Positions 1 through 10,271 of a stretch of DNA of 25,497 nt are shown piece after piece. The stretch's first letter is position 1. Every line of letters begins with the position of its first letter. The stretch is from a virus. Under the pieces are notes generated by a model, which saw only the letters and a list, made by a program, of their open reading frames with translations, was not told the DNA's origin and did not search any database. The position numbers were made by a program, and so were the translations under genes. The stretch spans positions 1 through 25,497 of IMG/VR virus record IMGVR_UViG_3300042261_001024, one strand, 5' to 3'.

Positions 1-222
1 ATGATCGATGGTTTGGCAGTAATTGTAGTAATCAACCAGCTCAGCATGAAGCTCAGAGACACCTGCTGGCATGCCACCACCTAGTGTTCGGACAGCAACG
101 TCCAACCACTCGGGGCAGCCATTGGCATCTACAGCTTCTTGCTCATAGTGAAGCTGGGTCGATTCCCCGCCATGCCAAACGACACGATCAGATGAATACG
201 TGTTGGGTTGATAAATAAACAT
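1..222 (-). CDS. hypothetical small protein, truncated by window edge
   Basis: An open frame runs leftward from an ATG at 222 to the window edge, giving at least 74 residues without a stop, so the C-terminus is missing. The protein starts MFIYQPNTYSSDRVVWHGG and is acidic and aromatic-rich, with no signal peptide or membrane segment. I do not recognise the family. It is the most downstream visible gene of a minus-strand series of tiny genes; its ATG lies 2 nt after the stop of the preceding gene (225), so the two are probably translationally coupled. The intergenic repeat found between the other genes of this series is absent here. Confidence 0.6.
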   Translation of the reverse strand, partial: MFIYQPNTYSSDRVVWHGGESTQLHYEQEAVDANGCPEWLDVAVRTLGGGMPAGVSELHAELVDYYNYCQTIDH

Positions 223-224
223 GA

Positions 225-392
225 TTACTTAGGTGCAATGATGTTGGAGAGAGCAGCGCGATAGCCATTGATCTCAGTGACCAATGCCTTACGCCGCTCC
301 TTAAGTTGAGCACGAATGTGGTCAGGGGTTTGATTCTCAGCCACCTTGACCGCAGCTACGGCAAGAAGCTGAGATAACTTGGCACGGAACAT
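225..392 (-). CDS. hypothetical 55-aa helical protein
   Basis: The frame can extend upstream to a GTG near 446, but that part reads through copy 1 of the intergenic repeat, whose other copies precede different genes. I therefore prefer the ATG at 392, giving 55 residues starting MFRAKLSQLLAVAAVKV. The protein is predicted largely helical, with an Ala/Val-rich N-terminal half and a basic middle (KERRKALV). No Shine-Dalgarno sequence is evident. Its function is unknown. It belongs to the minus-strand small-gene series and is followed after 2 nt by the next gene. Confidence 0.55.
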   Translation of the reverse strand: MFRAKLSQLLAVAAVKVAENQTPDHIRAQLKERRKALVTEINGYRAALSNIIAPK

Positions 393-404
393 GGCAAGAT
401 GTAA

Positions 405-471
405 GCCACCCTCAGTGGGTGGCAAGAACTGGGCAGGGGATTGCACCCTGCCTCCCGCTTTGACGGATCAG
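405..471 (-). repeat. structured intergenic repeat, copy 1
   Basis: Read on the minus strand, this copy starts CTGATCCGTCAAAGCGGG directly after the TAG stop of the upstream gene. It then forms a hairpin with a 7-bp stem (GGCAGGG/CCCTGCC) around the loop TGCAATC, followed by a second hairpin GCCACCC/GGGTGGC. The second loop (ACTGA) is shorter than in the other copies, so this is the most diverged 3' half. Short flanks AGCTG and CAGTT can pair around the first hairpin. Function unknown. Confidence 0.75.
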
Positions 472-681
472 CTAGTCGGCCATAGCCATACGCTGCTCGT
501 ACTCCATGTCAATGGCATGGAAACGAACATCTTGAATACGCTGGAATAAAGCTTCAATCTGCTGATTAGCTAAAGCAAGTTTGCCATCAGCAGAAAGAAA
601 AGTAACGTTCTCATCGCCTTCGGCAAACACCTCCATGCAATGCATAAGGAAATCAGCTTCTGTTGAAGTAAGTTGAAGCAT
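472..681 (-). CDS. hypothetical 69-aa protein
   Basis: An ATG at 681 opens a 69-residue frame (MLQLTSTEADFLMHCMEVFA...) ending in TAG. The protein is acidic, Met-rich and predicted mostly helical (QQIEALFQRIQDVRFHAIDM). It contains two cysteine-free halves, has no membrane segment, and belongs to no family I recognise. No Shine-Dalgarno is visible; the start lies about 14 nt after repeat copy 2. It is flanked by repeat copies 2 (upstream) and 1 (downstream), so it looks like one cassette in a series of gene-plus-repeat units. Confidence 0.6.
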   Translation of the reverse strand: MLQLTSTEADFLMHCMEVFAEGDENVTFLSADGKLALANQQIEALFQRIQDVRFHAIDMEYEQRMAMAD

Positions 682-694
682 GGTGCTAAGTTAT

Positions 695-769
695 TGTGCG
701 GTGCCCATCTCCGCTGGGGGCAATAACTGTGGGAGGGTTTGCACCTCCCAACCCGCTTTGACGGATCAG
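695..769 (-). repeat. structured intergenic repeat, copy 2
   Basis: On the minus strand the copy begins CTGATCCGTC, and the TGA in it is the stop codon of the upstream gene. Hairpin 1 has the stem GGGAGG/CCTCCC with loop TGCAAAC. Hairpin 2 has the stem TGCCC/GGGCA with loop CCAGCGGAGAT. Stem bases differ from copy 3 in a pairing-preserving way while the loops stay identical, which points to a conserved RNA or single-strand structure. The core GCCCATCTCCGCTGGGGG (+ strand) is shared exactly with copy 4. Confidence 0.85.
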
Positions 770-1014
770 CTGTAATCCTCGGGAAGCTCAACGAGCTCCG
801 CAAGAACCTGGTGTTGCAACTCCGAGTGGCCAGCAATCTTCAGACCCCATGCGGCGATCTGAAGTGCTTGCTCACGGCTAAGAAGCTGCGAGTGCCCGTC
901 CTCCATCCAGAAACGGATGGTGTCGAAGGCTCGTGCACCAAGCTCCTCCCTGGTAGGAAGCAGCAGACCTTCTTGCTGAAGGCCGTTGGTGCTGACGGTG
1001 TTGAAGACGCTCAT
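766..1014 (-). CDS. hypothetical 82-aa protein
   Basis: The ATG at 1014 opens an 82-residue frame (MSVFNTVSTNGLQQEG...) with a predicted helical, acidic C-terminus (QVLAELVELPEDYS). A GGAG motif overlaps the region just upstream (ACGGAGCGCCATG), a weak but plausible ribosome site. The TGA stop lies inside the first bases of repeat copy 2, and copy 3 sits upstream of the start. No domain is recognised. A longer frame on the opposite strand is a shadow and has no ribosome site. Confidence 0.65.
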   Translation of the reverse strand: MSVFNTVSTNGLQQEGLLLPTREELGARAFDTIRFWMEDGHSQLLSREQALQIAAWGLKIAGHSELQHQVLAELVELPEDYS

Positions 1015-1028
1015 GGCGCTCCGTAGTG

Positions 1029-1103
1029 TGTGCGGTACCCATCTCCGCTGGGGGTAAGAACTGGGACAGGGTTTGCACCTGCCCGCCCGCTTTTACGGAT
1101 CAG
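1029..1103 (-). repeat. structured intergenic repeat, copy 3
   Basis: On the minus strand the copy starts at the TGA stop of the 26-aa gene (CTGATCCGTAAAAGCGGG). Hairpin 1 is GGGCAGG/CCTGTCC (one G-U pair) with loop TGCAAAC. Hairpin 2 is TACCC/GGGTA with loop CCAGCGGAGAT. Compared with copy 2 (TGCCC/GGGCA), both sides of hairpin 2 have changed together (G-C to A-T), which is direct covariation evidence. The flanks GACTG and CAGTT can pair around hairpin 1. Confidence 0.85.
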
Positions 1104-1180
1104 TCGTGTACGTAACCAACAACACAGCTGATCACAAAGATCAGAATCAGTGCAGTTGTTTCGTGGTTAGTAAAAGCCAC
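1100..1180 (-). CDS. 26-aa single-pass membrane peptide
   Basis: A GTG at 1180 is preceded on the minus strand by a clear Shine-Dalgarno AGGAG 7 nt upstream (CAGGAGATCCCTGTG). It opens a 26-residue frame that is polar at the N-terminus (VAFTNHETT), then a continuous hydrophobic stretch ALILIFVISCVVGYV, then HD and a TGA shared with repeat copy 3. The composition is that of a single transmembrane helix with an outer charged end. Small membrane peptides in phages can act on the cell envelope or on membrane proteins, but the target here is unknown. The strong ribosome site, against weak sites for its neighbours, supports expression. Confidence 0.6.
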   Translation of the reverse strand: MAFTNHETTALILIFVISCVVGYVHD

Positions 1181-1192
1181 AGGGATCTCCTG

Positions 1193-1268
1193 TTGTGCGG
1201 TGCCCATCTCCGCTGGGGGCAATGCTGAGTGGGGGATTTGATCCCCCGGCATCACGCCTGGTACTCAG
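1193..1268 (-). repeat. structured intergenic repeat, copy 4 (variant 5' half)
   Basis: The downstream half matches copy 2 exactly over about 30 bp (TGCCC/GGGCA hairpin with loop CCAGCGGAGAT). The upstream half has lost CTGATCCGTCAAAGCGGG but keeps the architecture with different sequence: an outer 6-bp stem CTGAGT/ACTCAG (overlapping the TGA stop of the upstream gene) and an inner hairpin GGGGGA/TCCCCC with loop TCAAA. Conservation of shape without sequence argues that the fold matters. Confidence 0.8.
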
Positions 1269-1516
1269 AAAGGAATGTCATCAGATTGCGAATTCCACCA
1301 TGCGTTAGCCGCATGTTGGTCATCAGTAATCCAGCCTTCCTCTTCAGCTTGTACTTCCAGCATCCATTGAGGTGTGTTAACAATCTCTTGAATGCCACGA
1401 AGGTATGCAAGCTGGCGGTCGGTAGTCATGACATTGAATGCAATGGGATGTTCTGCGTGGTACGGGTGCGCAGCCCCCGAAGACAAATTAAATCCAACCG
1501 AATCCAACCATTTCAA
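1265..1516 (-). CDS. hypothetical protein, up to 83 aa
   Basis: The frame from a TTG at 1516 gives 83 residues. An internal ATG at 1429 would give 54 residues starting MTTDRQLAYLRG. The protein is Trp/Gln-rich and acidic (QAEEEGWITDDQHAANAWW) with no recognised domain. A GAGGG lies about 13 nt before the TTG and no ribosome site precedes the ATG, so the start is unresolved. It is the first gene of the minus-strand series, downstream of the ~400 bp non-coding block, and its stop overlaps repeat copy 4. Confidence 0.55.
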   Translation of the reverse strand: MKWLDSVGFNLSSGAAHPYHAEHPIAFNVMTTDRQLAYLRGIQEIVNTPQWMLEVQAEEEGWITDDQHAANAWWNSQSDDIPF

Positions 1517-1916
1517 CGCCGAAGCAATCCCTCTTCACACCGTCGCAACCTCCACGTCAACCCCTTGCCACTGTCTTATCTTGGAAAAGTCCAGTGATAG
1601 CAAGGGATTTGGGGAGTCGCGCCCGAGTTCTAGGGGTAAATGTGTTGATTTCAAGACGAAAACAAAGGATTTAGGTTAGGTGTGCTAGAAAATTTATGCG
1701 TAGGGCTTGTCAGCATACACTGACATCCCACGGGTAAATTTTGGACCACCCACCCATTCTTTTTTTTCTTCCCACATTTCACTTCGGCTAATGGTTGGGA
1801 GAAGCGTCAGATAATTTTGGACCCTATTTGCCATATATAAGGCCCTTCTTTTGTATAACAGTGATACATAAAATGCTTTTTGTAATTATTTTCCCTAATT
1901 AGCCCAAAAAATGCCA
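1517..1916. other. non-coding, dyad-containing probable control region
   Basis: No convincing gene is present on either strand. Three structures stand out. A hairpin at 1703-1729 (TGTCAG/CTGACA, loop CATACA, extended by GGG/CCC) is one. An 11-bp direct repeat AATTTTGGACC occurs at 1737-1747 and 1813-1823. An operator-like dyad TGTAT-n7-ATACA lies at 1852-1868. The block lies upstream of the minus-strand small-gene series and downstream of the 1967-2182 gene terminator, so it is where the promoter of the minus series should be. A weak candidate promoter on the minus strand is TTGCTA-n17-GATAAG near 1575-1603. Confidence 0.45.
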
Positions 1917-1945
1917 CAAAAAAGCCGGGGTTTTAGGCCCCGGCT
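1917..1945 (-). terminator. intrinsic terminator of the 1967-2182 gene
   Basis: On the minus strand an 8-bp GC-rich stem (AGCCGGGG/CCCCGGCT, 7-nt loop) is followed directly by a run of T. It sits about 20 nt after the stop of the 1967-2182 gene. On the + strand the stem is followed by the AT-rich GATTTAAATTT, so weak bidirectional function is possible. Confidence 0.85.
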
Positions 1946-1966
1946 GATTTAAATTTAATGCTTTGT

Positions 1967-2182
1967 TTATAAACCTTCTTTTTTCCGCTTGTAAGCCAGT
2001 GTTGCTCGCTTCGCTTTTTCAAATGCTTCCTCATCTGGAAGCTCATATGCCAAATTCATCTTGGCATCAGTAACAAAATTACGCACATCTAACGAATCGC
2101 TCCCTTTTACCGCCATGTCCATGGCTTTGTTCTTTATCGCTTCCAGTGCTTCGACCCTTTTTTGGCGCGTTCCAGCGTCCAT
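1967..2182 (-). CDS. hypothetical 71-aa helical charged protein
   Basis: An ATG at 2182 opens a 71-residue frame (MDAGTRQKRVEALEAIKNKA...) rich in Lys, Glu and Ala and predicted almost entirely helical, with a basic C-terminus (TLAYKRKKEGL). No domain is recognised. It is a single-gene unit ending in a strong intrinsic terminator and divergent from the large + strand structural block starting at 2283. That isolated, divergent placement is common for regulators, but no DNA-binding motif is evident, so a role is not assigned. Confidence 0.65.
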   Translation of the reverse strand: MDAGTRQKRVEALEAIKNKAMDMAVKGSDSLDVRNFVTDAKMNLAYELPDEEAFEKAKRATLAYKRKKEGL

Positions 2183-2282
2183 TGCTGTTTTCTTTGGTTT
2201 ATTTACTCAATATAACCCAAATAATTCTTGAGTTTTTTACTTATAGAATGTAAAAAGGCTTAAAAGTACCAAATAATTTCAA
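2183..2282. promoter_or_regulatory. divergent intergenic spacer
   Basis: This 100-bp AT-rich spacer separates the minus gene (start 2182) from the + strand gene at 2283, so it must hold both promoters if each is transcribed from here. A -10-like TAGAAT lies at 2244-2249 for the + direction, but no well-spaced -35 is visible. No Shine-Dalgarno precedes the 2283 ATG. Confidence 0.4.
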
Positions 2283-4526
2283 ATGGCTTTATCTCCTGCG
2301 GATTTTTACGCATACAGCCGCGCAACAGGGGTTGAAATCCCGGAAGATCCGCAAGAAAAAGCGGCAATGGCACCGGAAGTACTGGAATTTCGTCGTAATC
2401 AACTCAAAGCCCCACAACAAGAGTCAAATCCACTCCAGTTCCTTGGTACATCCGCACTTGCAGTAGGTGCAACCATTGGTGCCGGCTTAGCAGCCCGTCG
2501 ATTCCTGGGACGTGGCCAACAAATTCCCAAAGGACCAGCCAAATCTGCAACCGCTGGCGTTACACAAGCTGATCTTGACAAATTACAAACAGCAGCTGGC
2601 AGAAAAACACAAGTTAATTTTGACGATTGGTTGGCAGAACAACAACGTTTAGAGCGTCAACAGGTTTATGAAACAGTTGCTGCAAAATCTGCAGAAGAAT
2701 TACCACCTATTTACAGGCCCAAAGGCGATATTCAAGAAGACGTTTTAATTACTAGCCCAATAACCGGTGAAATTTATAAACGTGGACAAAGCCCTCAGGG
2801 TACATCAGCAACATACGTAGCTCCTTCCAAAGAACCGGGAGAAATTGCAGGATTTACATCGGTAAGCGTATCGGAAGCATTAGGAGACCCAACTGACAAA
2901 CTTTTAAGAGAGCTGGGTGAAATGCAAGCAGCTCGCAAGAAAGAACTGACATCCCGCATGAGTCAAGCGTATGGACAACGTTTGCAAAAAACAGCGGACG
3001 AATTAATTGAACAGCTTCGTTCTGAAACTGTTGACCTCACTACACTCCAGAACGCAACTGAAAACTTACAACGCGCTCAATTTGCAGGTGCCGTCGAATC
3101 TGGCGAGGATCAAATGACTGGTCGCATAAAATCCCAGTTGCAACGTAATGAAGATTACGACATGTCTCAAGTTGAAATGCTTGAGAACATTGCATCTCAA
3201 AATCAACCTCAAGTTATTGGTTATGAACCGGACGCAGCAATTAATCAAGCAGCTTCTCAACTACCCGACGGTTTACCTGTTGACCAAGCTGAACTTTTAA
3301 CAACAAAAAAACCTAAATATTTTATTCGCGAACGCGTGTTTCAACAACCAGGTGCACGTCTTCAAGAAGAAGCAAAAAAAACGCAACGTTATCAAACTCC
3401 TACTCCTGTTTCGGTAATAGGTCGTTATCCGCCAGCCCCTCAAAACCCTCCCTCTCCTTACGTAAAATTTCCGGGTCAATTTGGCAGTTCAACAGGCGAA
3501 GCTATCGTTGTTAGTCCGGTTGAACCTGTTGCCGGTTTAACAAATATTCGCCGGGGTAATGTTGAATTTACAGCCACTGAAGCACGTTTGGGTCCGACTG
3601 GCCGTCCTGCGCGATTTACTGTTTTGCCTCTTGGAACACCAACGGAAGGTAGGACTTTTACTGGTTCGTCAACGCCAACAATGAGCGCAGATGAAATGGC
3701 CGCAAAATTAACTGAAATGCAACTTAGCCAAGAAAAACAAATTCAAAACACAATGGCTCGTGGTTTAAGTGAAGCGCGAGCAAAGCGAAACATTCAATTA
3801 TCCGAAAGTCAACGCCAGGCAATCGAAGAATCTCTTCCTGGTTTTTCGCCGGAAGACTTAATGAGTCGCACTGGAGTTGTTGGATATGGTGATATTTTAG
3901 AAGCTGAACGTTTTGCAGAAGAACAAACATCCAAGTCAGGTCGTTTAAAAGCGTTAGAAGAAGGTGGTTTTTTGGAAGAACAAATTGATCCCGGTCAACT
4001 TCGCGTTGCACCGCAACAAGTTCGCCCTGGTGTGATGATTCGCCCTGCATCTAAAACTTCTTATCGAGGAATGACGGGCCGTCCAGGTTTTGGTATTTAT
4101 GGTGAGCAAGCTCCTGGCACCGCAGGAACGCCTGGTTTTGGTGCTGGTGCCGTAGAAGCTAGAAAAATAATTAAAACAGAAGGTGAAGAACGTGGAGTCA
4201 CAACACCACGAGCTTTTATTCCTGGCGTTGATGACCCTCAAATGAGAACGCCAGAAGGTTTTGTCTATACAGAAGAAGCAATGACGCAACCAACACAGGC
4301 TCGTGGAGGTTACCGGCGTTATGGGACGCAACCCCCCACGCGACCAGAGGCTGCACTTGAGGCCTTTGATGCTTCGCGTCATTTGCGGCAGCTTCAACAA
4401 GCTGGTCGTTTCGAAGAGGCTCAGGCTTTTGTTGATAAAATGAAAGAAGAACGTGGCATTACTGCTTTGGGTCAGTCGCAACCTTTGCGTCAACCAATAA
4501 ATCGACGCGGCAAGTTCGGAGCTTAA
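2283..4526 (+). CDS. large low-complexity virion-like protein (747 aa)
   Basis: This 747-residue protein has a hydrophobic Gly/Ala-rich segment at about residues 51-75 (FLGTSALAVGATIGAGLAAR), then a long Gln/Glu/Arg/Pro-rich body with short coiled-coil-like stretches (about 225-275 and 500-545) and a Gly/Pro/Arg-rich C-terminus. No enzymatic motif is seen. It is the first and largest gene of a + strand block running into terminase and head genes without an obvious terminator. Large, mostly disordered proteins with one membrane-prone segment in this position often are internal or ejected virion proteins; that role is inference. Codons are AT-rich compared with the capsid gene. The start is the first ATG, without a Shine-Dalgarno. 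Confidence 0.75.
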   Translation: MALSPADFYAYSRATGVEIPEDPQEKAAMAPEVLEFRRNQLKAPQQESNPLQFLGTSALAVGATIGAGLAARRFLGRGQQIPKGPAKSATAGVTQADLDKLQTAAGRKTQVNFDDWLAEQQRLERQQVYETVAAKSAEELPPIYRPKGDIQEDVLITSPITGEIYKRGQSPQGTSATYVAPSKEPGEIAGFTSVSVSEALGDPTDKLLRELGEMQAARKKELTSRMSQAYGQRLQKTADELIEQLRSETVDLTTLQNATENLQRAQFAGAVESGEDQMTGRIKSQLQRNEDYDMSQVEMLENIASQNQPQVIGYEPDAAINQAASQLPDGLPVDQAELLTTKKPKYFIRERVFQQPGARLQEEAKKTQRYQTPTPVSVIGRYPPAPQNPPSPYVKFPGQFGSSTGEAIVVSPVEPVAGLTNIRRGNVEFTATEARLGPTGRPARFTVLPLGTPTEGRTFTGSSTPTMSADEMAAKLTEMQLSQEKQIQNTMARGLSEARAKRNIQLSESQRQAIEESLPGFSPEDLMSRTGVVGYGDILEAERFAEEQTSKSGRLKALEEGGFLEEQIDPGQLRVAPQQVRPGVMIRPASKTSYRGMTGRPGFGIYGEQAPGTAGTPGFGAGAVEARKIIKTEGEERGVTTPRAFIPGVDDPQMRTPEGFVYTEEAMTQPTQARGGYRRYGTQPPTRPEAALEAFDASRHLRQLQQAGRFEEAQAFVDKMKEERGITALGQSQPLRQPINRRGKFGA

Positions 4527-9874: not shown

Positions 9875-10054
9875 ATGACTAGCTCCGTTCCTACCGGCCA
9901 ATCCGGCACTGAAGATTACTTCGATATCACCAAGTTCGAAGAGCTGCTCAACCGCCTTGAGGGCTCCAAGGGCCGTCAACAGCGTCAGAAGTCCCTGGAA
10001 GGTCGTCGTGACATCTTCGCTCAGGGTCTCGCCAGCATGATGAGCAATTTCTGA
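9875..10054 (+). CDS. tandem small gene, copy 1 (59 aa, MTSSVPTGQ-tagged)
   Basis: This 59-residue protein starts MTSSVPTGQSGTEDYFDITK and continues into a basic helical region (LEGSKGRQQRQKSLEGRR) and a hydrophobic, Met-rich end (LASMMSNF). It has no cysteine and no recognised family. Its codons are mostly C- or G-ending (GGC, TCC, TTC, AAG, CTG), like the capsid gene, suggesting high expression. It follows a good extended -10 promoter but has no Shine-Dalgarno. The following gene (10067) encodes the same protein with one substitution. A role in the virion or in packaging is suggested by its location only. Confidence 0.85.
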   Translation: MTSSVPTGQSGTEDYFDITKFEELLNRLEGSKGRQQRQKSLEGRRDIFAQGLASMMSNF

Positions 10055-10066
10055 TCTTAATCAGTC

Positions 10067-10246
10067 ATGACGAGTTCTGTTCCCACAGGCCAATCTGGTA
10101 CCGAAGATTATTTCGATATCACTAAATTTGAAGAGCTCCTGAATCGTCTTGAGGGTTCTAAGGGTCGCCAACAGCGCCAAAAATCTTTAGAAGGCCGTCG
10201 CGATATCTTTGCTCAGGGCCTTGCCACGATGATGAGCAACTTCTGA
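10067..10246 (+). CDS. tandem small gene, copy 2 (59 aa, recoded duplicate)
   Basis: The 59-residue product is identical to that of the 9875 gene except Ser to Thr at residue 54. At DNA level about 32 of 59 codons differ synonymously, with copy 2 favouring T- or A-ending codons (TCT, GGT, TTT, AAA, TTA). The gap between the copies is 12 nt and contains a small hairpin CTGAT/ATCAG (10051-10064) covering the stop of copy 1. This is not a recent tandem slip; either an old duplication under very strong protein selection or capture of a diverged allele explains it. Function unknown. Confidence 0.85.
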   Translation: MTSSVPTGQSGTEDYFDITKFEELLNRLEGSKGRQQRQKSLEGRRDIFAQGLATMMSNF

Positions 10247-10271
10247 TTTTTTCTTGTAAGATTTATAAGCC

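Follow-up and report, generated by a model that had tools for sequence, protein, structure and literature searches.

What are the repeats that separate the tiny genes at the left end of this phage sequence, and what do they do at gene junctions? The window, that is, the whole stretch of DNA analysed, is a 25.5-kb IMG/VR virus record; among named relatives, Synechococcus phage S-EIV1 comes out best (70.7% identity, covering 26% of a query of 8 kb). The plus strand encodes terminase and capsid families; left of position 1430, the minus strand carries tiny genes without known function, with four repeats of about 75 nt between them. Six minus-strand reading frames, five of them from the tiny-gene series, gave neither a Pfam match above threshold nor a PHROG match. 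The parts of the region are listed below in the order in which they are read; TLS denotes a tRNA-like structure and P3 the stem-loop that follows it.

1265–1429, minus strand: gene A, 54 aa, function unknown; 3' end in TLS 1; no Pfam or PHROG match.
1224–1269, minus strand: TLS 1, class II; acceptor-like arm of 7 nt with a terminal U-C mismatch, D-like hairpin GGCGUGAUGCC, T-stem of 5 bp, loop AUCAAAU; gene A stop UGA (1267–1265) inside.
1197–1223, minus strand: A73-like base, UU linker and pseudoknot-type P3 GCCCCCAGCGGAGAUGGGCACCGC, after TLS 1.
1100–1180, minus strand: gene B, 26 aa, probably started by the GTG that follows P3 and a Shine-Dalgarno hairpin (mechanical ORF 1100–1255); 3' end in TLS 2.
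1059–1105, minus strand: TLS 2, class I; 5+7 bp, loop UGCAAAC; gene B stop UGA (1102–1100) inside.
1032–1058, minus strand: C73, UU linker and pseudoknot-type P3 ACCCCCAGCGGAGAUGGGUACCGC, after TLS 2.
766–1014, minus strand: gene C, 82 aa, function unknown; 3' end in TLS 3.
725–771, minus strand: TLS 3, class I; 5+7 bp, loop UGCAAAC; gene C stop UGA (768–766) inside.
698–724, minus strand: A73, UU linker and pseudoknot-type P3 GCCCCCAGCGGAGAUGGGCACCGC, after TLS 3.
472–681, minus strand: gene D, 69 aa, function unknown; stops at TLS 4; Pfam match sub-threshold only.
427–473, minus strand: TLS 4, class I; 5+7 bp, loop UGCAAUC; 5' end straddled by gene D stop UAG (474–472).
405–426, minus strand: C73, UU linker and plain-hairpin P3 GCCACCC-ACUGA-GGGUGGC, after TLS 4.
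225–392, minus strand: gene E, 55 aa from the ATG at 392; first gene after TLS 4; own 3' end without a TLS; no Pfam or PHROG match.

A preliminary description of this DNA had placed four copies of a two-hairpin repeat on the minus strand, at 471–397, 769–695, 1103–1029 and 1268–1194. They are indeed there, with the stems and loops that it gave, and three of them carry CTGATCCGT(C/A)AAAGCGGG where the upstream gene stops. The repeat had been said to lie between every gene, and is found at four of the five minus-strand junctions: genes E and F (225–392 and 1–222) adjoin with no copy between them. Likewise, the loop CCAGCGGAGAT, held to be fixed, recurs in the other copies but not in copy 471–397, which has the different hairpin GCCACCC-ACTGA-GGGTGGC. 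The plain two-hairpin view had to be given up, having overlooked a third stem: the bases flanking CTGA on its 5' side are paired with those on the 3' side of CAG and, because of this pairing, the elements start 1–2 nt further upstream, at 1269, 1105, 771 and 473.

The element is a TLS followed by a second stem-loop, and this fold is well supported. What had been taken for a first hairpin turns out to be a T-arm, whose stem is capped by a T-loop of 7 nt (UGCAAAY, UUCGAYU or AUCRAAU); its 3' strand runs into a second stem, the 5' strand of which overlaps the end of the upstream gene. Class I elements, read on the minus strand, consist of the P0 5' strand (typically A-R-C-U-G), an unpaired A, the P1 hairpin UCCGU-YAAA-GCGGG, one base, the 7-bp P2 with loop UGCAAAY, the P0 3' strand C-A-G-U-U, an unpaired base, UU and P3.

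The repeat goes beyond chance resemblance, the motif CTGATCCGTNAAAGCGGG being found in 112 IMG/VR stretches. These were fetched by the P1 pattern and gave 75 distinct copies of 51 nt, 73 of which were aligned (set A1), L103 and L118 being set aside by eye as chance coding matches. P1 is fixed by the search pattern and hence uninformative in this set, where P2 alone covaries: 156 cells are changed on both sides, giving a score of 0.392 against a shuffled mean of 0.095, a value reached by none of 500 shuffles. When 37 class I copies, lengthened at either end by two bases, were given to RNAalifold, it returned unprompted a P0 of 5 bp, a P1 of 5 bp and a P2 of 7 bp, with compensatory changes in 11 of the 17 pairs; this set was hand-picked for variety and draws in part on the structure scan described below, hence a bias towards paired acceptors. 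Conservation of fold rather than of sequence, as first proposed, is therefore borne out, and the test named at that time as able to overturn it, covariation in a larger number of copies, went in its favour (0.585 versus 0.158 in shuffled alignments, 0 of 500 shuffles reaching the score).

P0 was not predicted by RNAalifold in set A1, cut at CUG/CAG, and a MAFFT alignment of all classes together (A4) left the 5' strand unaligned and was kept out of the counts. For the acceptor-like stem of class II, 36 copies have on average 5.86 of 7 pairs, against 5.68 when permuted (maximum 5.86), so that permutation lends it no support. Within the window, three copies have no fold of lower energy than the TLS fold, and all three stems recur in the minimum-energy fold of the class II copy.

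Four features liken the element to a tRNA. The loop follows the pattern U-N-C-R-A-N-Y, with 7 nt and a G-C closing pair, U27, G28, C29 and A31 being invariant in the 73 copies; U-G-C-R-A-N-Y closed by G-C is the T-loop pattern. Loops of tRNA type, UUCGAYU, UUCAAYU and AUCRAAU, occur in other copies, for instance as GGUUCGAYUCC.

The second feature is the length of the stack. A set of 134 class I copies was selected with the outer P0 bases left out of account; beyond CUG/CAG, the first place is paired in 99% of them (permutation maximum 96%), the second in 87% (permutation maximum 82%) and the third in 18%. Since pairing stops at this third place, P0 has 5 bp, and T-stem and acceptor-like stem together measure 7+5 = 12 bp, the value found in tRNA. 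Among 73 distinct divergent copies, the total is 12 bp in 37, 13 in 19, 11 in 10 and some other length in 7, with the stack split as 6+6, 5+7 or 7+5; the 15 copies parsed at less than 12 bp count against the rule.

The third feature is the trailer. Among 140 class I copies picked without regard to their tails, 124 have A at position 73, all have U at position 74 and 139 have U at position 75; thus, in 139 of 140, N73-UU stands in the place of CCA, a CCA-less end with an unpaired discriminator such as is found in RNase Z substrates. Two observations count against this: position 73 is C rather than A in two of the four window copies, and four of the five tails in the array of phage S-CBP42 read UCUGG, without UU. 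As a fourth feature, one class retains AGCUGGUGCGCA, which we take to resemble a shortened tRNA D-region; as a matter of sequence, the GG in the short D-like region of classes III and IV is suggestive, and only suggestive, of an elbow contact between D-loop and T-loop.

The element is not a tRNA that annotation had overlooked: this candidate was rejected when ARAGORN reported no tRNA in the window, and the TLS lacks an anticodon arm. Among 18 other loci, ARAGORN was positive only for L165, a real tRNA-Gly, and L014, a tRNA-Leu located elsewhere. Rfam gave no match at gathering score over the whole window and, at relaxed E-values, no tRNA-type family or riboswitch worth following in half of S-EIV1 or, with E up to 10, in window positions 1–2300, L040, L045, L157 and the S-CBP42 array.

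A structural scan, defined by a T-loop, a 12- or 13-nt strand, perfect pairing and an NUU tail, gave 249 matches in 1.34 Mb, versus 2 in dinucleotide-shuffled sequence; the spurious-looking L009:2596, L033:1617, L046:2480 and L097:9165 were kept among the 249 and among the 78 representatives. Distinct matches amount to 216: 148 belong to class I and had already been gathered by the search, and 68 do not.

Relatives of the TLS are found in S-EIV1-like phages and in several T7-like cyanophages. Three near-complete EIV1-like records contain 4, 4 and 5 elements, all within about 1.2 kb, and S-EIV1 itself has two; in these phages the elements are confined to one tiny-gene cluster. Model R1 matched 24 of 25 chosen records, its scores of 25–30 bits for L103, L118 and L154 being those of sequences fetched by the same pattern. 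Of the T7-like cyanophages, NATL2A-133 has two TLSs, S-SBP1 three, S-CBP2 two, and S-CBP42 one before the capsid gene plus an array of five between small genes. A host origin was rejected: the class I pattern has two matches in bacterial and archaeal genome contigs, both in unrelated MAGs and judged by eye to be chance, because the P2 stem fails to form.

Upstream of the capsid gene, 19 cyanopodoviruses show a TLS in 8 cases, 117–173 nt from the start codon, a tRNA-Gly in one (NATL1A-7), a T-arm without a clear acceptor in two (S-CBP2 and P60) and nothing in 8; the last two groups count against the reading proposed below. A relaxed scan, allowing one mismatch and long D regions, was positive in 9 of the 19, namely the 8 with a TLS and the one with the tRNA, against 56 of 3000 random control windows; P-SSP7/P-SSP2 and Syn5/S-TIP28 are near-identical pairs and not independent. 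The NATL1A-7 gene (L165:634–704) is a genuine CCA-less tRNA-Gly(UCC) directly upstream of the capsid gene, with the trailer U-UUGGC, and its equivalent place hints that TLSs may descend from tRNA genes. No TLS was seen, by eye and by folding, before the capsid gene of the Pelagibacter phages HTVC025P and HTVC019P.

Other elements were noted in the same sequences. Downstream of the place held by the capsid-upstream TLS or tRNA, L159, L162, L158 and L165 have the motif GGTGGGATAGACCACA in common, perhaps a promoter of the phage polymerase. S-EIV1 (L005) contains, between 25892 and 43012, six copies of an element of about 28 nt like GTCCTGAGTATGACATTAAAGTGCTCAC, mostly in small-gene gaps; a similar sequence replaces P3 in L061 and L064. 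On its minus strand, at about 41485 and 40785, two similar structured RNA elements, CCCTGGGC...GTCCCAGG, lie between small genes, and L005:21433–21518 gives a sub-threshold match to RT-17 RNA (33.3 bits, gathering score 40.4). In the window, positions 9875–10250 hold a tandem pair of 184-nt repeats, 80% identical, that spans two reading frames of 59 aa.

The position of the element relative to the upstream stop codon is strongly constrained. Enough upstream sequence was available for 211 distinct copies, 5 of which have no assignable ORF. In the remaining 206, the stop lies between the TLS 5' end and the 3' cut proposed below in 183, upstream in 23 and beyond it in none. The commonest in-frame stop offset is +3 (119 copies), followed by +2 in 26; as a background, a stop this close occurs at 3.1% of random positions (85/2760). 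Where UAA or UAG takes the place of UGA, the partner strand changes along with it and the acceptor pairing is kept. Orientation is equally consistent: 192 of 201 TLSs have a same-strand stop close to their 5' end, while 20 have one at the mirror place on the other strand.

What follows the UU is structured as well. Of 208 distinct tails, our parser finds 100 that lead directly to a pseudoknot-type structure and 97 that lead directly to a plain hairpin; 11 lead to neither. In the pseudoknot type, stem S1 is paired in 400 of 400 cells and S2 in 394 of 400, above the maxima of 370 and 369 obtained in 1000 permutations; the two stems may be alternatives rather than simultaneous, because the third loop joining them has about 1 nt. 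An intrinsic terminator was rejected, as none of the seven terminator-like sites falls within a TLS or a P3; the one at 1193–1179 is the Shine-Dalgarno hairpin. At this site, and at many loci past a pseudoknot-type P3, the next gene's start codon is often folded together with its Shine-Dalgarno sequence in a small hairpin whose two sides change in step (ACAGGAG..CCUGUG, CACGGAG..CCGUG, CAUGGAG..CCAUG), a pattern reminiscent of gated initiation.

We propose that the element is a two-part punctuation mark in polycistronic phage mRNA, at which the RNase Z of the host cuts between the discriminator-like base and the trailer, N73^UU, and we assign this reading a probability of about 0.6. The first part would be the TLS, with its stack of about 12 bp, T-loop, discriminator-like base and UU in place of CCA, usually holding the upstream stop codon in its 5' strand; the second, a stable hairpin or pseudoknot right after the UU, would form the 5' end of the downstream message. 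Host RNase Z would read the T-arm/acceptor stack and cut after the discriminator. The upstream mRNA would thereby retain its stop codon and acquire a TLS as its 3' end, perhaps CCA-tailed and resistant to 3' exonucleases, and the downstream mRNA would begin with P3 as a protective structure. While a ribosome is terminating, it would cover the acceptor-like strand and may thus delay cutting until it leaves the stop codon.

RNase Z is described as reading the tRNA elbow and as cutting CCA-less precursors after the discriminator (PMC4810234, PMC8549757). The RNase Z family is present in the control genome, that of Synechococcus elongatus. A downstream U is said to stimulate the enzyme, reportedly in Pellegrini's 2012 work on subtilis, which would explain the nearly invariant UU. 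A processing site, one of the functions suggested in the preliminary description, is the best supported of its guesses; the tRNA-like nature of the fold had escaped it.

Processing of the type known from mitochondrial tRNA punctuation, with a 5' cut by RNase P and a 3' cut by RNase Z excising the TLS, would make use of the same 12-bp T-arm/acceptor stack, which both enzymes read, and RNase P is known to act on tRNA-like mRNA elements (PMC4919922). For three members of the five-copy S-CBP42 array, the scan put the stop 8–15 nt before the TLS, so that neither cut would do harm there. In 183 of the 206 copies, however, the 5' cut would fall at or before the stop codon and would remove or split it, so that the mRNA would be left with no stop; a 3' cut after A73 would not spoil the stop. 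Excision by RNase P was dropped as the main reading on this ground, and we consider it unlikely.

The same stop codons could also be read as a sign that the TLS acts on the terminating ribosome with no cutting at all, by favouring recycling, blocking drift or allowing reinitiation at the next start. The fixed place of the in-frame stop in the acceptor-like strand (119 of 206 at +3, 26 at +2) and the maintenance of acceptor pairing when UGA becomes UAA or UAG suit a translation element. Action on the ribosome, on the other hand, leaves the unpaired base and UU at the CCA position and the 12-bp ruler without explanation, and fits poorly with the 23 copies whose stop is upstream of the TLS and with capsid TLSs 117–173 nt from the start codon. 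We regard it as quite unlikely.

The genes on either side of the element vary among relatives: the 24 copies with one upstream family have 15 different families downstream, and the 21 copies with another likewise have 15. Neighbour families were defined by a stricter clustering, single linkage at 1e-5 having fused nearly everything. TLSs are more similar to each other when the upstream gene is common (0.769) than when only the downstream gene is (0.724), and P3s when the downstream gene is common (0.733 versus 0.708); the effect is small, and was reached by 5 of 500 label permutations for the TLS and 2 of 500 for P3. The border between TLS and P3 thus looks like a module boundary.

This variety would be expected of a mobile or recombination module for small-gene shuffling, with the structure acting in DNA. 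Comparable modules are the promoter-stem-loop cassettes of T4-type phages and the attC sites of integrons, with core sites GTTRRRY and RYYYAAC. The same gene families have many different neighbours across the element, which in EIV1-like phages is confined to one tiny-gene cluster and carries its own in-frame stop. Against such a module stand the kept gene orientation (192 of 201), the tRNA-specific features, the single ruler shared by several unrelated sequence classes and the lack of a promoter-like site at the elements: for the promoter types scanned, window positions 1–2300 contain one site, on the opposite strand, and a promoter stem-loop cassette of the T4 type was rejected accordingly. 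Shuffling can, moreover, be a by-product of common sequence. The neighbour variety agrees with gene shuffling at these places, yet does not by itself make the element the recombination site suggested in the preliminary description, a role we hold to be improbable. A decoy or regulatory RNA domain, binding host RNase Z, CCA-adding enzyme or EF-Tu to inhibit or sense it, would match the several TLS copies per genome and the tRNA mimicry known in RNA viruses, but the tight coupling of the TLS to stop codons and to the hairpin after it suggests action in cis and makes this idea highly improbable.

Punctuation by RNase Z might be part of a wider scheme, which we put forward tentatively and hold to be possible rather than probable: a cyanophage mRNA 3'-end code, in which each cassette would comprise a 5' fold, a gene and a pseudo-tRNA holding the gene's own stop. 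Ribosome and RNase Z would compete for one strand, so that cutting would be translation-gated; the 3' end would be tRNA-like, possibly CCA-tailed, and interchangeable marks would allow free shuffling. If punctuation by RNase Z is true, phages of several genera hand mRNA processing to the host enzyme for tRNA 3' ends by means of a mimic that includes the stop codon, and the reordering of the tiny-gene cluster without loss of expression is explained. The proposal offers a direct and cheap test of how cyanophages derive separate messages from one transcript, and short mRNA-end signals for cyanobacterial expression work.

Our literature text search found no description of intercistronic tRNA mimicry in DNA phages. 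Such mimicry, its several sequence classes and the stop codon in the acceptor-like stem appear to be new here, whereas tRNA mimicry as punctuation is already known in mitochondria and a few eukaryotic RNAs. MascRNA and menRNA and the t-elements of plant mitochondria are eukaryotic and occur as single elements. Like the TLS, mascRNA and menRNA (of MALAT1 and MEN-beta) and the t-elements are tRNA-like, lie within longer RNAs and are recognised by tRNA-processing enzymes (PMC4919922); unlike it, they are neither at stop codons nor in DNA phages. In mitochondrial tRNA punctuation (Ojala 1981), too, tRNA-shaped elements between genes mark the processing sites of polycistronic transcripts; there they are working tRNAs cut at both ends, while the TLS has no anticodon arm, overlaps the stop codon and fits a 3' cut alone.

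The 3' tRNA-like structures of plant RNA viruses make the 3' end of an mRNA a tRNA mimic, as is proposed for the TLS. CCA is added to such ends (PMC4477674). They are located at the ends of RNA genomes, whereas the TLS recurs at gene junctions. In T7, intercistronic structures that serve as RNase III sites yield phage mRNAs that are separate and stable. The TLS is likewise intercistronic, and the cyanophages bearing it include T7-like ones; the T7 sites, however, are long duplex hairpins without T-loop or tRNA ruler. The tRNA-like domain of tmRNA recalls the TLS in its GCUG/CAGC acceptor end, UUCRA T-loop and short D region without a D-stem; the TLS differs from it in lacking a tag reading frame, a G-U identity pair at 3:70 and CCA.
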